Shown here: positions 2,394 through 7,803 of the stretch, piece by piece
Numbering within the stretch: the first letter of the stretch is position 1
Layout: each line of letters starts with the position of its first letter
DNA from: Gammaproteobacteria bacterium
GTDB taxonomy: Bacteria > Pseudomonadota > Gammaproteobacteria > Granulosicoccales > Granulosicoccaceae
Direction: 5' to 3'
DNA: 7,998 nt
NCBI GenBank assembly: GCA_019634245.1
Contig: JAHQVR010000250.1
Location: forward strand, 1 to 7,998
Notes under the pieces: model-generated
What the model was told of the DNA's origin: nothing
The model's database searches: none
Seen by the model: the letters and a program-made list of their open reading frames with translations, nothing else
Translations under genes and position numbers: made by a program

Positions 2394-2987
2394 TCAGTTG
2401 CAATTGTTATGCTTTAACCACATCTCGCGATTGTGACCTTCCGGGATATTCATGCATGGATCGGACGAAAAATATCCGCGCAACGCATTGTATTTATCTA
2501 TCTGCTGGTCGCTCAAAATAGCTGGGGTTTTGAGATGTGCAGACAGGTGCACAAAACGCAACTCCGAACGAATATCGCCTATTTCACGAAGCAATGATTT
2601 AAGCTCCTTCTCGCCAGGAACGTTTTCCTGAAACCGCATTTCAAGGTTCAGTTCTTTTTCGATTAGTTGGTTACCGAGCTTCACGGCTGCAGCATTCATT
2701 TCGTTGAACAACTTTTCAATTTCCAGAGTCTGTTCACTAGAGAGATTTATTTCATCTTTCATTTCAAGCAAGTGAATTGGTCCTGGAACACCGTTTAGTT
2801 CCGCTGTTTTCGCTAATCCCCAACCAGAGCCTGCTTTCAATTCGGCTATGTCTTCCGATGACAGGCTTTTAATGCTTCTGCCTTCTTGCCCTGAATACAT
2901 TGAACGATGCTTAGAATTAGAGGCAGAGACTGTGCAAGCAATTAACAAAAACACTGGGAGAACAACTAGTTTATTCAACATGCCCAT
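2394..2987 (-). CDS. Spy/CpxP-like periplasmic protein, possible lipoprotein
   Basis: This 197-aa exported helical protein has the Spy/CpxP (LTxxQ) pattern of periplasmic chaperone and metal-stress proteins. The N-terminus is a short signal sequence ending in L15-I-A-C18, which fits a lipobox, so the mature protein may be anchored through Cys18. Two LTxxQ-like motifs are visible, LSSEQ (82-86) and LSDQQ (158-162), separated by long amphipathic helices. A preceding segment (about 38-75, with IKSLSSEDI and ELNGVPGPIHLLE) looks conserved. The start is the first ATG of ATG-GGC-ATG because AAGGG (2996-3000, minus strand) lies 8 nt upstream. It lies downstream of the S24-like gene in the same direction (82-bp gap) and converges on the PKHD hydroxylase. 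No envelope-stress regulator is nearby, so any role in protein folding or metal defence is inferred from the family. Confidence 0.8.
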   Translation of the reverse strand: MGMLNKLVVLPVFLLIACTVSASNSKHRSMYSGQEGRSIKSLSSEDIAELKAGSGWGLAKTAELNGVPGPIHLLEMKDEINLSSEQTLEIEKLFNEMNAAAVKLGNQLIEKELNLEMRFQENVPGEKELKSLLREIGDIRSELRFVHLSAHLKTPAILSDQQIDKYNALRGYFSSDPCMNIPEGHNREMWLKHNNCN

Positions 2988-3069: not shown

Positions 3070-3498
3070 CTAGTCGTACCGCTTGTGGTAGCGTCTGCGA
3101 GTACCAGCCCGTTGCGTAATTACACCAACTATATCGCTAAAGTCGGCACTGGTAGCAGCGCAACTGTACTCGCTGTTCAAAGGGCACAATTGCCATTGAA
3201 AATCGGAATCTTTACGCAATTGCCGAAGCATAAAAGTACCAACTAACTCGCTCTCATCCTGTGCAGTGGTTGATCCGTTCGATTCAGATGATGTTTGCTT
3301 TTTTGCAAGCACAAAACTTCCATCGGTTGCTCGCCCGGTTGGGTCGACAATGACGATGCACCCTTTCCTGAATTCAGGCTCCATACTATCGTCTAAAACC
3401 TGCAACGCAAACGTCTCTGCCTCAACGCAAGTTGAGGGTTCGAGCCTTGGAGCATTCTGTCCAACCGCCTTGATTTCGATAATTTTGGATTCAGACAT
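3070..3498 (-). CDS. S24/LexA-fold protein without DNA-binding domain, probably non-cleaving
   Basis: The 142-aa protein corresponds to the C-terminal peptidase-like domain of LexA/UmuD (S24). FALQVLDDSMEPEF (30-43) holds the expected nucleophile S38, and KGCIVIVDPTG (45-55) and DGSFVLAKKQ (59-68) match the following strands. In LexA the general-base Lys sits in a VTVKRL context. The matching segment here is TFMLRQL (88-94), so R92 stands where Lys is expected. There is no helix-turn-helix N-terminal domain and no LexA-type Ala-Gly cleavage site in the short N-terminus. A Ser/Thr/Glu-rich insertion (69-83) separates the halves, and the C-terminus is basic (RAGTRRRYHKRYD). It follows yeeE by 74 bp in the same direction. 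It could be a binding or sensing protein derived from the fold rather than an active peptidase. No Shine-Dalgarno is obvious. Confidence 0.8.
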   Translation of the reverse strand: MSESKIIEIKAVGQNAPRLEPSTCVEAETFALQVLDDSMEPEFRKGCIVIVDPTGRATDGSFVLAKKQTSSESNGSTTAQDESELVGTFMLRQLRKDSDFQWQLCPLNSEYSCAATSADFSDIVGVITQRAGTRRRYHKRYD

Positions 3499-3572: not shown

Positions 3573-4712
3573 CTATGCCCACTCCCGCCAGGGCATTAAT
3601 ATATCCGCAATGCCAGCGAATAATGAAGCAAGCACACCGCGTTCATCCATTCGATGGTAAGCCACTCGCATAGTAATTGCGGAGCCAATCATAATTGACA
3701 TGGTCGCTACAATAGAACCCAAAGCCAAGGTTGACAGGCCCGTTACACCCTGACCAACAGTGCAACCCAGCGCAAGCACTCCTCCAATACCCATCAGTGC
3801 TCCACCAACCATATGGTTTACCATGTCACCGCGTTGGCTAAACGTTTCTATGCGGAACGTGCGCGAGATTATCGAGTACACGAATGAACCAACGATAACG
3901 CCAAAAACAGCTGCAATACCAAAACTGATTGTAGCGCCGGTATAGGTCATTAAGTAACTAACGGTGTTGCCAATGGGTGCCACAAAACTGAAGCCCTCTA
4001 CCGGCACCGGGTCGAAATCATCATAGCCAATAATGCCAGTAATGGTCCAGGCTCCCACCACTGCAAGACCCACTACGATACCACCAAGCAGATTATTGCT
4101 GTCTTTTCTGAGCTCCTCTATCGACAACGCAGCGAATATCAACAAGATCGAAAAGCCGATTGCAAATATCCAACGCAGGGCATTGGTGACCTCAATACCA
4201 AACAGTGACATTACGACTGTTGCAAGGCCTTGTTCATCAAGACCCTTCTCGGACAAATCGATTGCGAGTGGATCAATAAGCTCTACACGCGCTGCACCAA
4301 TAATTCCGCGCAAGGTCGCATATGCAGTAATTGCAAGAATTAAAAACACAACAAGCGATTTCAAATTACCACTACCGACACGAACCAGCGTTCGTTGACC
4401 ACAGCCGCCAGACAGAGTCATGCCTACACCAAACATAAGCCCGCCGAGAACAAACCCAACCAGCCCGAAGCTCGGCACACGGTATATGCTCTGCGAAAGA
4501 TCGACCTGTCCGGTTAGCTCAAGCAACTGCGTGCCTGCCACCGCGACACCCATGGCCAATAGCCATGCACCAAGCCTTCCCTTGAGCCCCATGTTTACCC
4601 AGTCACTAATGGCACCCATAGTGCAGAAGTTCGTCTTGTTGGCCACAATGCCAAAAACGAAAGCGAGGGCGAAACCCAGCCCAGATACAATGTGAATATT
4701 AGAGAGTTCCAT
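3573..4712 (-). CDS. yeeE: YeeE/YedE (TsuA-like) thiosulfate/sulfur transporter
   Basis: An inner-membrane protein of 379 aa with about nine or ten hydrophobic segments (first at about 8-24, then about 47-65 and 82-102, continuing to the C-terminus). It carries the signatures of the sulfur-transport (YeeE/YedE, PF04143) family: NKTNFCTMGAISDW with C30, LSGGCGQRTLVR with C104, and ALGCTVGQGVTG with C317. In the TsuA structure the equivalent cysteines line the thiosulfate path, so all three key residues appear intact. It lies 94 bp downstream of tusA in the same direction. This is the usual partnership (TsuA with TsuB, E. coli YeeE with YeeD), in which the carrier receives imported sulfur. The ATG at 4710-4712 is preceded by a 13-bp near-palindrome and no strong Shine-Dalgarno. 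Thiosulfate is the likeliest substrate, but the family as a whole is only partly characterised. Confidence 0.93.
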   Translation of the reverse strand: MELSNIHIVSGLGFALAFVFGIVANKTNFCTMGAISDWVNMGLKGRLGAWLLAMGVAVAGTQLLELTGQVDLSQSIYRVPSFGLVGFVLGGLMFGVGMTLSGGCGQRTLVRVGSGNLKSLVVFLILAITAYATLRGIIGAARVELIDPLAIDLSEKGLDEQGLATVVMSLFGIEVTNALRWIFAIGFSILLIFAALSIEELRKDSNNLLGGIVVGLAVVGAWTITGIIGYDDFDPVPVEGFSFVAPIGNTVSYLMTYTGATISFGIAAVFGVIVGSFVYSIISRTFRIETFSQRGDMVNHMVGGALMGIGGVLALGCTVGQGVTGLSTLALGSIVATMSIMIGSAITMRVAYHRMDERGVLASLFAGIADILMPWREWA

Positions 4713-4806: not shown

Positions 4807-5037
4807 TTAAGCCTTCTTCAAGCGGTAAATAAAACTATCGCCTTCAGTGCTCGATTCAAGCAGTTCATTACCCGTTTGCTTGGCGAAAGCTTCAAAATCC
4901 TTAACCGAGCCAGGATCGGTGGCCGTTACTTTCAATATATCCCCCGACTGCAACTCTTTCAGTGCTTTCTTTGCACGCAATATTGGCATTGGGCAGTTGA
5001 GTCCGGATGTATCCAGTTCTTTAGTAACATCGCTCAT
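4807..5037 (-). CDS. tusA: TusA-family sulfur carrier
   Basis: A full-length 76-aa TusA/YeeD/SirA-family protein. The core motif L13-N-C15-P-M-P-I-L-R-A-K-K contains the Cys that carries persulfide sulfur. GDILKVTATDPGSVKDFEAFAKQTGN (about 32-57) is the typical second half of the two-layer alpha/beta fold. It is cytoplasmic. In sulfur oxidisers TusA passes sulfane sulfur to rhodaneses, DsrEFH or the Hdr-like system. Next to a YeeE transporter it is more likely the TsuB-type acceptor of imported sulfur. It sits between the 76-aa small protein gene (70-bp gap) and yeeE (94-bp gap), all leftward. The ATG at 5035-5037 has AAAAGG (5048-5053, minus strand) 10 nt upstream. None of the dsr, hdr or rhodanese genes is in the window, so its downstream acceptor is unknown. 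Confidence 0.95.
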   Translation of the reverse strand: MSDVTKELDTSGLNCPMPILRAKKALKELQSGDILKVTATDPGSVKDFEAFAKQTGNELLESSTEGDSFIYRLKKA

Positions 5038-5107: not shown

Positions 5108-5338
5108 CTAGTCGTGCTCTCCCATCGGGCGCGGCTCGCGCTTCTCCTTCAGCAAGCGCTCAGCCTGCTGCGGGTTTTCCGCAAACATCATCCTGTACGT
5201 GGTACCGGGAGGTACATGTGATTTTGTCCGGTACTGCTTGACGAGCGTCTTTGCTGAGCGGTAATCCTCTACAGACTCCAATAGCGTCAGCTGCTTAAAC
5301 GCGTTGATTTCAAAAATGTGGTAAGCCAAAACGGACAC
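5108..5338 (-). CDS. Small conserved-looking protein upstream of tusA, 76 aa
   Basis: I do not recognise a named family. The protein starts with a strand-like MSVLAYHIFEI, continues with an amphipathic, basic helix-rich middle (ESVEDYRSAKTLVKQYRTK), then TTYRMMFAENPQQAERLLKEKREPRPMGE. There are no Cys residues, signal peptide or membrane segment, so it should act in the cytoplasm. The frame opens with GTG (5336-5338), and the only internal Met codons fall late in the protein, so GTG is the credible start. It is the first gene of the leftward group that includes tusA and yeeE and has promoter-like boxes directly upstream. That position suggests an accessory role in sulfur import or transfer, such as a partner of TusA. 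This is inference from context only. Confidence 0.75.
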   Translation of the reverse strand: MSVLAYHIFEINAFKQLTLLESVEDYRSAKTLVKQYRTKSHVPPGTTYRMMFAENPQQAERLLKEKREPRPMGEHD

Positions 5339-5489: not shown

Positions 5490-5891
5490 ATGCTTCACGT
5501 TACTTCATGCCCTCGGCCATTTGTACTTGCGTTTCTGACGCTTGTTTTTTGTATTGGTCAATCCGCTCATCTATTCGCTGCAGAGCTCTTGATAGTTGAG
5601 CAATCAGACTGCCCTTACTGTGATCGGTTCAATGATGAAATCGGGCAAGTATACGCAAAAACCGATGAAGGCAAAGTTGCCCCGCTTGTGCGTCTCCAGC
5701 TACGGGACACATGGCCAAAGACATACGAATCAATTGCCAAACCAGCAGTAACACCAACGTTCATCCTCGTGCACAATGGTAAGGAAATTGATCGTTTGCA
5801 CGGCTATCAAGGCGATGAATTTTTCTGGTTCTTGCTGAATGATATGCTCGATAAGCTACCCGAAAACGTGCAAACTCAAAACAGATTATAA
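5490..5891 (+). CDS. soxS: SoxS-like periplasmic thioredoxin-fold protein
   Basis: A 133-aa exported thioredoxin-like protein. Residues 1-30 form a signal peptide (R9, hydrophobic 11-23, likely cleavage after LFA or AA). The redox motif C41-P-Y-C44 is followed by a helix (DRFNDEIG), then TPTFILVHNGKEI, where P89 fits the cis-Pro loop of thioredoxins, and HGYQGDEFFWFLLNDML near the end. This order and length match SoxS of the Sox operon of Paracoccus-type bacteria, a thiol reductase that keeps the SoxYZ carrier active. It is unrelated to the E. coli regulator of the same name. No other sox gene is in the window, but it faces away from the tusA/yeeE group across 151 bp. A more general DsbC/TrxA-like reductase role cannot be excluded. 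It converges on the repeat-protein gene, with 36 bp between the stops. Confidence 0.75.
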   Translation: MLHVTSCPRPFVLAFLTLVFCIGQSAHLFAAELLIVEQSDCPYCDRFNDEIGQVYAKTDEGKVAPLVRLQLRDTWPKTYESIAKPAVTPTFILVHNGKEIDRLHGYQGDEFFWFLLNDMLDKLPENVQTQNRL

Positions 5892-5910: not shown

Positions 5911-5939
5911 CGGCGCTCCACTCAGCTTTACTGACGCCG
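5911..5939. terminator. Bulged hairpin between convergent genes
   Basis: CGGCG (5911-5915) pairs with CGCCG (5935-5939), and TCAG (5922-5925) with CTGA (5931-5934) around a 5-nt loop, leaving a 6-nt bulge on one side. It lies at the meeting point of the SoxS-like gene and the repeat-protein gene. There is no T-run on either strand next to the stem, so termination activity is doubtful. Confidence 0.25.
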
Positions 5940-7058
5940 AGTCTCCGACATTGCTCTGGCCATTTCTGGCATTACCATCATCATTTTCATCATTAGTTCC
6001 GGGCTCATTGCCTGCATCATAGATTCGACCACTTCGGGTTTAATCATTGTTGTAATCATTCCTGCAAATAAATCCGGATCGGCCAGCTTCAACATGGAGT
6101 CCATGACCTGAGGTTCGGCCATTGTCTGCATCCAATTCACCATCAACTCGGGATCAACAGCATTGGCAATAGAATCGATTGTTTCGGGGTTAGCCATAGT
6201 ATTCATCCAGCTTCGAATAATCTGCGCATTCAACATTCCCAACATCGAGTTCGTGAAGTCAGGGTTTGTCATGCTGTGCATCCACTGCGACAGAATCTCA
6301 GGTTCGACAATGTTGGCGATGGCCCGAAAAAATTCAGGGTTGGACATAGCAGAGAGCCATTGGTTGATTGCTGCTGGATCAGCAATGGACATCATCGACT
6401 CCACCATTTCAGGTTGCGATATCGTGTCCATCCACTGCGTAACCATTTCCGGCGGCATTTTCTTCGCAACAGCATCCAACTGGGGTGGCACACCCGTCAT
6501 CATTTGAGCTAACTGCCGGCTGGTCATCACACGCATCCACTGTGTCATGTATTCGGGGTCTACCGTGGTCGTCATTGAGCTCACAATTTCCGGATTCGTC
6601 ATTGCACTCATCCATGACTGCATCAGCTCTGGTTTTGCCACGTTAGAAAACGCACTGAACACTTTTGGCGACGACATGATTGCAATCCAACCTTGTAAAA
6701 CCCTCGCATCACCGTATTGCATCATGGTATCGATGAATGACTCATGTGTCATAACCGTCATAAATTGACGCATCAACACCGGGTTAAAAGTATCTGTCAT
6801 TTGAGACATGGTCTCTGGGTTGGAAACCACGCCCGACCAACGACTTAAGGCCTCTGGGTCAATACTTGATTCAAGCTGATGGACGAACTCGGGTGTGGCA
6901 ATATCACCATAAACAGACGTATCGTTTGCTTTAACCAGGCCAGCACACGTGAATGCCAAACCCAACAGAAACCACCTGACAATGTACCCGGAGCATCGAG
7001 CAGTTAATCTACCTGTTTCACAGAAATACGACACAATTTTTCTCGCCTTATAGCTCAC
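5928..7058 (-). CDS. Exported Met/Trp-rich 25-residue-repeat protein
   Basis: No family I can name. The 376-aa protein has a long basic N-terminus and a hydrophobic stretch (28-44, possibly cleaved after VKA), so it should enter the membrane or periplasm. From residue 66 to the end it is twelve tandem units. Units 1-4 and 6-11 have exactly 25 residues, unit 5 has 35 (insertion VPPQLDAVAKK region, about 190-200), and unit 12 is degenerate. The consensus is hydrophobic-D-P-E-4x-W-M-2x-M-x-N-P-E-3x-S-M-3x. Trp occupies position 9 in nine units. Two [DN]PE helix caps per unit suggest paired short helices forming a solenoid. There are about 48 Met in 311 residues and no Cys in the repeats. GTG at 7056-7058 is chosen because AGGAG lies 6 nt upstream. 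The start overlaps the DUF302 gene by 11 nt, implying translational coupling. Structural scaffold or metal-binding roles are speculative. Confidence 0.85.
   Translation of the reverse strand: MSYKARKIVSYFCETGRLTARCSGYIVRWFLLGLAFTCAGLVKANDTSVYGDIATPEFVHQLESSIDPEALSRWSGVVSNPETMSQMTDTFNPVLMRQFMTVMTHESFIDTMMQYGDARVLQGWIAIMSSPKVFSAFSNVAKPELMQSWMSAMTNPEIVSSMTTTVDPEYMTQWMRVMTSRQLAQMMTGVPPQLDAVAKKMPPEMVTQWMDTISQPEMVESMMSIADPAAINQWLSAMSNPEFFRAIANIVEPEILSQWMHSMTNPDFTNSMLGMLNAQIIRSWMNTMANPETIDSIANAVDPELMVNWMQTMAEPQVMDSMLKLADPDLFAGMITTMIKPEVVESMMQAMSPELMMKMMMVMPEMARAMSETRRQ
5931..6863 (-). repeat. Array of twelve 75-bp coding repeats
   Basis: The unit boundaries, as residues of the encoded protein, are 66-90, 91-115, 116-140, 141-165, 166-200, 201-225, 226-250, 251-275, 276-300, 301-325, 326-350 and 351-376. 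DNA identity between units is modest and concentrated around the codons for W-M and N-P-E (for example ATCCACTGCG-type stretches near 6280 and 6430). The duplication is therefore old and kept in register at protein level. A half unit (GDIATPEFVHQLESS, residues 51-65) precedes unit 1. Confidence 0.85.
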
Positions 7059-7803
7059 CGTATGCTCCTGCTTCCATTATGCTATGGATGTTTTCTCTTA
7101 TCGCAATGGCTTCTTCTCGCAGCTCATCAGACATTTTGTTCGGATTAGGACTAGTGTCTAACCATCTCACATCCCAATCTAGTGTTACCACCCATAAGTC
7201 CCCGGCTGAATCTTCAATTACAGCAATTCGACAGGGAAGCAACGCGACGAACTCCGGGCTGTAATCAAGAATTTTTCGCATGGTCATAACATCACAGTAA
7301 CTGACTATTTCAACCTTCGGCATTGGCTCACCGGAAATCGACTCCATGATTTTCCAAGGCGTGTTATGCCCTACCATGCGAAAATTCAGTAAGTTGGCCC
7401 GAAGGTTCATCGACTCAATAACATCATCAATGCTCAACCCATCATCCACCTTGATCTTATGGGTCATCATGTTGACCATATCTCTCAAGCTGAACGGGTT
7501 GACCGCCATGAAAGACTGAGCTGCATTCATTTTTGCTTCGCGGCTGATGGAGCGCATCATGGTATTGGGCTCCGCCGGATCCTGAGCGGGTTTCAGCATT
7601 TCATGCATGAATGACTGTGACTGCTTTTCCTCATCCATTGCAGTGGTGGAATCGGACTCATCTGTTTGTGCTAATACTGTCTGATCTGCGACTGTTTGAT
7701 CTGCGACTGTTTGTGCGAGGGCTGTTTGCAAAAGAGCATTACCAGCTGAGAAACAGCTTGTTAGCACAACCACAGTGGCCAGATTGCGAATTATCTTCAT
7801 CAT
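7048..7803 (-). CDS. Exported DUF302-domain protein
   Basis: A 251-aa secreted protein with a C-terminal DUF302 (PF03625) domain. The N-terminus is a signal sequence with two possible processing routes: cleavage after ALA (about residue 30), or lipidation at C17 in the lipobox-like L-T-S-C. A low-complexity linker with repeated ADQTV units (about 31-47) and a Met-rich region (66-113) precede the DUF302 core (about 114-215: IKVDDGLSIDDVIESM, VEIVSYCDVMTMRKIL, SPEFVALLPCRIAVIED). C170 and C191 lie in the positions where this family often has Cys. Domain function is unknown; structures show small alpha/beta dimers. After the core comes RWLDTSPNPNKMSDELREEAI and a helix. The gene starts 3 nt after the preceding gene ends and overlaps the repeat-protein gene by 11 nt, so the three are one transcription unit. 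Confidence 0.85.
   Translation of the reverse strand: MMKIIRNLATVVVLTSCFSAGNALLQTALAQTVADQTVADQTVLAQTDESDSTTAMDEEKQSQSFMHEMLKPAQDPAEPNTMMRSISREAKMNAAQSFMAVNPFSLRDMVNMMTHKIKVDDGLSIDDVIESMNLRANLLNFRMVGHNTPWKIMESISGEPMPKVEIVSYCDVMTMRKILDYSPEFVALLPCRIAVIEDSAGDLWVVTLDWDVRWLDTSPNPNKMSDELREEAIAIRENIHSIMEAGAYGEL
7065..7069 (-). promoter_or_regulatory. Shine-Dalgarno inside the DUF302 gene for the repeat protein
   Basis: AGGAG on the minus strand lies 6 nt before the GTG at 7056-7058, within the last codons of the DUF302 gene (EAGAYGEL). It supports the GTG start of the repeat protein over a later in-frame GTG (codon 9) and fits coupled translation. Confidence 0.65.
7661..7730 (-). repeat. 15-bp tandem repeats in the DUF302 protein linker
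   Basis: Units at 7661, 7676, 7691, 7706 and 7721 follow a 15-bp period. Those at 7676-7690 and 7691-7705 differ by one base (ACTGTCTGATCTGCG and ACTGTTTGATCTGCG); the outer ones are diverged. They encode the ADQTV/LAQT run just after the signal peptide. Being a multiple of three, the array can change in copy number without breaking the frame. Confidence 0.75.

Follow-up and report, generated by a model that had tools for sequence, protein, structure and literature searches.

The window, by which the whole stretch of 7,998 nucleotides that was analysed is meant, carries a gene for a repeat protein rich in methionine and tryptophan whose neighbours are sulfur genes (Table 1). The stop codon of the upstream DUF302 gene and the GTG start of the repeat gene overlap by 11 bases and an AGGAG is found a few bases 5' of the GTG, so that the two genes are probably co-translated. 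As proposed in an earlier note on this DNA, the repeat protein is apparently exported, a presumed signal peptide having been recognised by eye. All three cysteines of the reading frame lie within its residues 1–44, leaving none in the presumed mature protein. The same note had suggested looking for sulfur-oxidation or copper genes among the neighbours of homologues; sulfur genes were indeed found, and a Pfam scan of nine window proteins detected no copper family.

Table 1. Positions of the genes and protein features in the window
Feature	Positions	Strand	Remarks
Met/Trp-rich repeat protein	5928..7058	-	from the ORF list; 376 aa; GTG start; orthologue L001:6660-7733
Presumed Sec signal peptide, residues 1-44	6927..7058	-	by eye; hydrophobic core FLLGLAFTCAGLV; probable cleavage after VKA
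Repeat array, residues 67-376, twelve units	5931..6860	-	gapless split; each 25 residues, unit 5 = 35
Unit 5, 35 residues	6456..6560	-	insert motif QMMTGVP-x-QLDA, kept in the L001 orthologue
Units 6-10	6081..6455	-	best model pLDDT 82; ten helices, 10-12 residues each
Long, Sox-type DUF302 protein	7048..7803	-	upstream partner; two Cys present in all 20 aligned sequences
SoxD-position cytochrome c, C-terminal 63 residues	7807..7998	-	60% identical to the L001 protein after SoxC
Thioredoxin-like protein	5490..5891	+	Thioredoxin_2 26.3 bits, cut-off 27; relative adjoins the L001 repeat gene (121 bits)
76-aa ORF	5108..5338	-	no Pfam match at E<=0.01
TusA sulfurtransferase	4807..5037	-	87.8 bits, cut-off 28.6
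YeeE/YedE-type transporter	3573..4712	-	Sulf_transp 214 bits, cut-off 27; below the named NCBIfam TsuA/YedE cut-offs

Over residues 67–376 the repeat protein divides without gaps into units of 25, 25, 25, 25, 35, 25, 25, 25, 25, 25, 25 and 25 residues, that is ten good units of 25, a single longer one of 35 and a last, degenerate one of 25; this make-up had already been described from the first inspection. The self-similarity of the protein at a lag of 25 residues was 16.0 s.d. above that of 500 shuffles of the same residues, and at a lag of 50 it was 13.4 s.d. above. Lags 12 and 13 were also raised, by 6.3 and 5.6 s.d., which means that each unit falls into two half-repeats, about 12 and 13 residues long. 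These can be written as D/N-P-E-x4-W-M-x2-M and N-P-E-x3-S-M, each opening with Asn/Asp-Pro. Methionine makes up 48 of the 310 repeat residues (15.5%, in agreement with the earlier estimate of about 15%) with a spacing of M-x-x-M, and only two histidines occur in the array. The tryptophan described as conserved is present in 9 of the 12 units; it stands at position 8, not 9, of the consensus from which it had been read. Compared in pairs, the eleven units of 25 residues agree on average in 25.6% of their amino acids and 44.5% of their nucleotides, and the units are therefore old. The half-repeat, the conservation of methionine over other hydrophobic residues and the sulfur-import locus had been missed in the first reading.

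Three smaller observations concern neighbouring proteins. At about residues 101–112 the window DUF302 protein contains a stretch NP-x5-M-x-N-M-M which looks like a half-repeat, and its Asn-Pro is invariant in 20 sequences. A Spy/ZraP-like protein is encoded both in the window (2394-2987, minus strand) and on the contig L001 described below (L001:2560-3198, minus strand); the LTXXQ score is 14.5 bits, below the cut-off of 24.3, and the two proteins match each other with 210 bits. By eye, the 142-residue protein at 3070-3498 (minus strand) resembles a stand-alone S24/LexA-type peptidase domain.

The orthologue and the retention of methionine

When named genomes were scanned with a profile built from the window DUF302 protein and 11 of 185 search hits, 12 close sequences in all, four loci were obtained. 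The repeat gene was found at one of these, L001, a contig of a Chromatiales MAG (genome G001). The DUF302 proteins of the three other loci are 34–37% identical, and a repeat match was present nowhere in their genomes (the locus L002 was read). With the repeat protein alone as query the named-genome library gave no match. A set of 5.8 billion proteins returned nothing for the repeat protein or for a profile made from it and its orthologue; as both of these known members were themselves missed, this null result is no evidence of absence. A DUF302 search of the same set did return the window's own DUF302 protein, and Met-rich repeat families may be hidden from searches of this set. A match on a Lactiplantibacillus plasmid with 17.6% identity was taken as chance.

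The L001 orthologue has 357 residues, is 51% identical to the window repeat protein (53% over 329 aligned residues; 400 bits in a local phmmer search) and shares its unit plan and unit order. The gene order of SoxD-type cytochrome, DUF302 gene and repeat gene is also the same in both places; in L001 it is preceded by SoxC (TIGR04555, 627 bits with a cut-off of 420) and followed by thioredoxin-like genes. Over the 329 codons the two repeat genes are 66, 80 and 40% identical at codon positions 1, 2 and 3, so that the frame has been selected as protein.

From the 48 methionines of the window protein 41 are kept in the orthologue, as are all nine tryptophans, 22 of 24 prolines and 8 of 10 phenylalanines. 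The aliphatic residues are kept far less often in the same alignment, with 6 of 16 leucines, 5 of 18 isoleucines and 8 of 23 valines, together 19 of 57. The difference between methionine and these three residues is significant in Fisher's test (p=5.5e-8, for one orthologue pair and with residues treated as independent). As far as this single pair indicates, methionine itself appears to be retained, for which a plain hydrophobic core would have no need.

Relatives of the repeat protein and the link to long DUF302 genes

Of 369 genomes belonging to the same class as G001, eight gave a match to the two-sequence profile (window and L001), namely G001 and seven others. The matches in the seven others are shorter proteins with Asn-Pro-x-x-Tyr-Met-x-Trp-Met repeats which look exported. 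Eleven proteins of 182–235 residues, six from profile-matching genomes and five from further loci, were collected under the name family B, which is coined here; left out of the eleven-row profile were two further hits, L021 and L016, of which one is truncated at the end of its contig and the other has an unusual C-terminus, and a kind with a repeat of nine residues. Two further proteins of the latter kind, with MNP-x-x-Y-M-x-W repeats, lie between YeeE and DUF302 genes at L017:11078-11749 (minus strand) and 11809-12501 (plus strand). The family-B profile gave 118.1 bits with the window protein and 146.7 bits with the L001 protein, compared with 7.1 and -0.9 bits for the reversed window and L001 sequences and 0.1 bits for the best of 1000 shuffles of the window protein. 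Judged by these scores, the window protein is homologous to family B over the repeat, beyond likeness of composition. Two cysteines are invariant across the eleven members of family B; as the mature window and L001 proteins have none, they are relatives of this family, not members. Among the 48 genomes of its order, only G001 itself gave a match to the repeat or to DUF302.

At E<=1e-20 the DUF302 profile found matches in 62 of the 369 class genomes. Seven matches in six genomes scored over 170 bits and were defined as the long type; the other 62 matches, the short type, did not exceed 121 bits. The repeat was matched in five of the six genomes with a long DUF302 and in three of the 363 without (p=6e-9). 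G091, G097 and G215 have family-B or similar hits but gave no DUF302 match, and the family-B genes of G048 and G189 are far from the DUF302 locus. The surroundings of the DUF302 genes were compared by composition, a Met-rich neighbour being an ORF with at least four Asn/Asp-Pro and more than 8% Met within about 1.5 kb. Such an ORF accompanied five of six long-DUF302 loci (one per genome) and none of 24 short loci, these being the 24 fetched of 62; five of the 24 have some ORF over 10% Met, none of these with more than one Asn/Asp-Pro. Relatives of G048 contributed nine further long loci, every one with a Met/Asn-Pro-rich ORF, which brings the total to 14 of 15. Compared with 0 of 24 this gives p=1e-9, a value which ignores kinship, 11 of the 15 loci coming from G048 and its relatives. 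The single miss is G330, where both long-DUF302 copies are without a Met-rich neighbour. At 13 of the 14 loci the Met-rich ORF, counted by composition, is or includes a CxxCH protein. Most of the 14 neighbours share with the window protein no more than a high content of Met and Asn-Pro, homology being shown for family B alone.

The DUF302 proteins of G189 and G048 carry a Met/Asn-Pro repeat as an N-terminal fusion, in G189 with a period of 13 residues, which is the length of a half-repeat of the window protein. Fused Met-Asn-Pro repeats are seen in the DUF302 proteins at L052:9186-10987 and L053:8948-10898 (period 13 residues in L053), and beside both lies a protein of 27–30% Met with one CxxCH heme motif. 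No new long DUF302 was found in the relatives of G018 and no DUF302 match in viral contigs; DUF302 relatives occur in Alphaproteobacteria.

When the 14 loci (G330 excluded) were followed for up to 20 kb or to the contig end, DsrE2 was present at 12, YeeE at 11 and SoxY at 7, together with a CxxCH Met-rich protein at 13 and a repeat gene of the window type or family B at 7. One DsrE2 was confirmed by NCBIfam (295.8 bits with a cut-off of 210), three DUF302 and one SoxY by Pfam, and the rest rest on phmmer. SoxB passed its cut-off in 8 of the 15 long-DUF302 genomes and SoxC in 2; G001, a fragmented assembly, gave no SoxB above the cut-off. What the loci have in common is thus a link to carriers and import rather than to the Sox route of thiosulfate oxidation itself. 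As a predictor of the repeat family, SoxY alone was rejected as too broad and weak (7 of 190 genomes with SoxY, 1 of 179 without, p=0.07). SoxY-like genes (L066, L067, L068, L069 and L071; 101–106 bits by phmmer) were observed at the locus in five genomes without a SoxB match, where a SoxY carrier perhaps works without SoxB.

The occurrence of DUF302 beside sox genes has been noted earlier and speculatively tied to trithionate in the accessible part of one paper (PMC5037610), and an excerpt of another places a Sulfitobacter DUF302 near a YeeE gene (PMC11034169). These portions of the two accounts do not mention a Met-rich neighbour, and the titles and abstract openings listed by literature searches, few of them from subscription papers, name no repeat protein rich in Met that adjoins DUF302, Sox or YeeE genes. 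The repeat protein family is apparently undescribed.

Predicted fold and possible functions

AlphaFold2 predicted regular helix pairs for the repeat protein with moderate confidence, 24 helices across the array, which agrees with the stacked helices expected in the earlier note and not with disorder. The full-length model is of low quality (pLDDT 59.3, pTM 0.48). For units 6–10 the best of five models reached a pLDDT of 82.2, the other four 61.0–67.2, and in this five-unit model the predicted helix starts coincide with the Asn/Asp-Pro positions. According to these models each unit would consist of two short helices with turns at Asn/Asp-Pro, stacked into a solenoid. Foldseek returned seven matches at E<=0.001 for the full-length model (designed repeats, Puf-A, a mitoribosome chain and importin alpha), none with a TM-score above 0.28, and no match at E<=0.001 for the five-unit model in the PDB or a viral library. 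No Foldseek match of the five-unit model was better than E 0.15. The fold-search matches listed include no structure titled STI1, ubiquilin or Dsk2, which decides nothing either way.

The supposition that the repeat belongs to no known repeat family stood for the window protein, which passes no Pfam or NCBIfam cut-off and has no Pfam match at E<=1 to HEAT, TPR, ARM, Sel1 or PPR; these five are also absent from the 11 Pfam families matched by the orthologue. It did not stand in full for the orthologue itself, which exceeds the gathering score of Pfam GerD (PF17898; 46.9 bits with a gathering score of 29.5, window protein 26.9) and barely that of the STI1-type family UBQLN1 (PF23195; 27.8 with 27, window protein 12.7). 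None of four composition-preserving shuffles of the orthologue matched either of the two. Nine further families, among them MgtE_N and LRV_2, match it below their cut-offs, and with the NCBIfam GerD equivalog (cut-off 100) both proteins stay below, the window protein with 20.3 and the orthologue with 44.7.

A general role of the repeat protein in periplasmic sulfur trafficking is probable, as suggested by its recurring company of DUF302, YeeE, DsrE2 or TusA and often SoxY, i.e., of carriers and an importer. A more specific reading, which we hold with some reserve, is that of a soluble periplasmic accessory of sulfur oxidation and import with a Met/Trp surface for hydrophobic sulfur or for a sulfur-loaded partner. 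The apolar face of the solenoid, lined with Met and Trp, would hold zero-valent, poorly soluble sulfur in the form of sulfane or polysulfane chains, or such a partner, and the DUF302 protein may be a docking partner or a sulfur-handling enzyme. Sulfur from periplasmic carriers would in this way be kept soluble, pass through YeeE and be taken over inside by TusA or DsrE2, in this presumed order of steps. In a 2024 study of YeeE-like importers the YeeE-like SoxT1A imports sulfur in Hyphomicrobium, and the means by which SoxYZ-bound sulfur reaches the cytoplasm is called unknown (PMC11582611). In its boldest form, which is doubtful, the proposal sees in the Met/Asn-Pro repeat proteins a class of its own, and a new one, that holds zero-valent sulfur in the periplasm. 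Together with the Sox-type DUF302 protein, often a single-heme Met-rich protein, and YeeE, TusA and DsrE2 they would provide the missing step from a carrier such as SoxYZ to the importer for sulfane sulfur, a thioether-lined solenoid solubilising the sulfur chains without covalent thiol chemistry.

Another explanation, somewhat unlikely in our view, is that a Met-rich groove binds segments of proteins, as in STI1 domains, and that the repeat protein acts in the periplasm as holdase or scaffold for partners such as DUF302 or the heme protein, without any contact to sulfur itself. The anatomy of STI1 domains as described, six helices with turns of about 90 degrees at prolines and a Met-rich groove (PMC13083928), corresponds to the short Pro-turned helices predicted here, and the narrow UBQLN1 score of the orthologue with its silent shuffles points in the same direction. 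PDB sequence searches with the repeat proteins gave nothing significant (best E 0.03); the orthologue matched GerD (E 0.08) and Sgt2 (E 0.64) without significance, both ranking below an unrelated cytochrome P450 (E 0.03). Against this explanation stand the low UBQLN1 score of the window protein and the recurrence at a single sulfur locus, a linkage that one would not look for in a general holdase.

The methionines might also serve as an oxidant sink, oxidised by reactive species and repaired by MsrP in the manner of MrpX in perchlorate reducers. Defence by Met cycling is known for MrpX together with YedYZ (PMC4623255), and Met-rich proteins are listed as oxidation probes (PMC3514235). That methionine is kept as methionine (41 of 48) and that Met-rich neighbours reach 30% Met would suit a sink, as would the presence of MsrP over its cut-off in 12 of the 15 long-DUF302 genomes compared with 2 of 14 well-known control genomes. 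However, the MsrP of G001 is encoded on a contig other than L001, none passes the cut-off at the L001 locus and none is found among the seven window proteins scanned with NCBIfam. A strict 25-residue register, a fixed Trp and a fixed sulfur locus are not needed by a sink either. This function is rather unlikely.

An envelope protein of periplasmic sulfur deposits, comparable to sulfur globule proteins, is improbable. SgpD is exported, has regularly spaced prolines and sits on the globules (PMC10386293). The relatives of the repeat protein likewise look exported and repetitive, and several Met-rich ORFs are often present per locus. Yet SoxCD is encoded at the L001 locus and, by the SoxD end, in the lineage of the window; organisms with SoxCD usually do not store globules. 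Binding of a soft metal, Cu(I) or Hg, by Met clusters would suit the Met richness and the M-x-x-M spacing, as Met thioethers bind Cu(I), but is very improbable for a mature protein without cysteine and with two histidines in its repeats, which is encoded among sulfur genes and not beside a copper family in the nine window proteins.

The locus offers testable candidates for the step from carrier to cytoplasm, namely the two-cysteine DUF302 protein and the Met-rich repeat proteins which recur beside it in the sampled gammaproteobacterial genomes. It is also a natural experiment on the capacities that set methionine apart from the other hydrophobic residues, and the very short and regular helical repeat may be useful to protein designers.

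Comparison with known systems

HEAT, ARM, PUF and other helical solenoids have units longer than the 25-residue repeat, and no sequence match to them was found for the window protein. The spore germination lipoprotein GerD shares with the repeat protein short helical stretches opening with Asp-Pro, as seen in the PDB alignment of the orthologue. It differs from the repeat protein in that the latter has no lipobox by eye and scores below the NCBIfam GerD cut-off; Chromatiales are not known as spore formers. MrpX, which occurs with YedYZ/MsrPQ, is Met-rich and exported too (PMC4623255). It differs from the repeat protein by the large ordered repeat, the fixed Trp and the sulfur locus of the latter, and the L001 locus is without msrP. 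By their description (PMC10386293), SgpA-D are likewise exported and repetitive proteins of sulfur oxidisers. Nearest in build we read the STI1 domains of ubiquilins, Dsk2 and Sgt2, which have short helices broken at conserved prolines and a Met-rich apolar surface (PMC13083928). While these belong to eukaryotic chaperones with six helices per domain, the repeat protein has 24 predicted helices in a 25-residue register with a conserved Trp and is apparently exported. We read the resemblance as one of build and not of shown common descent.
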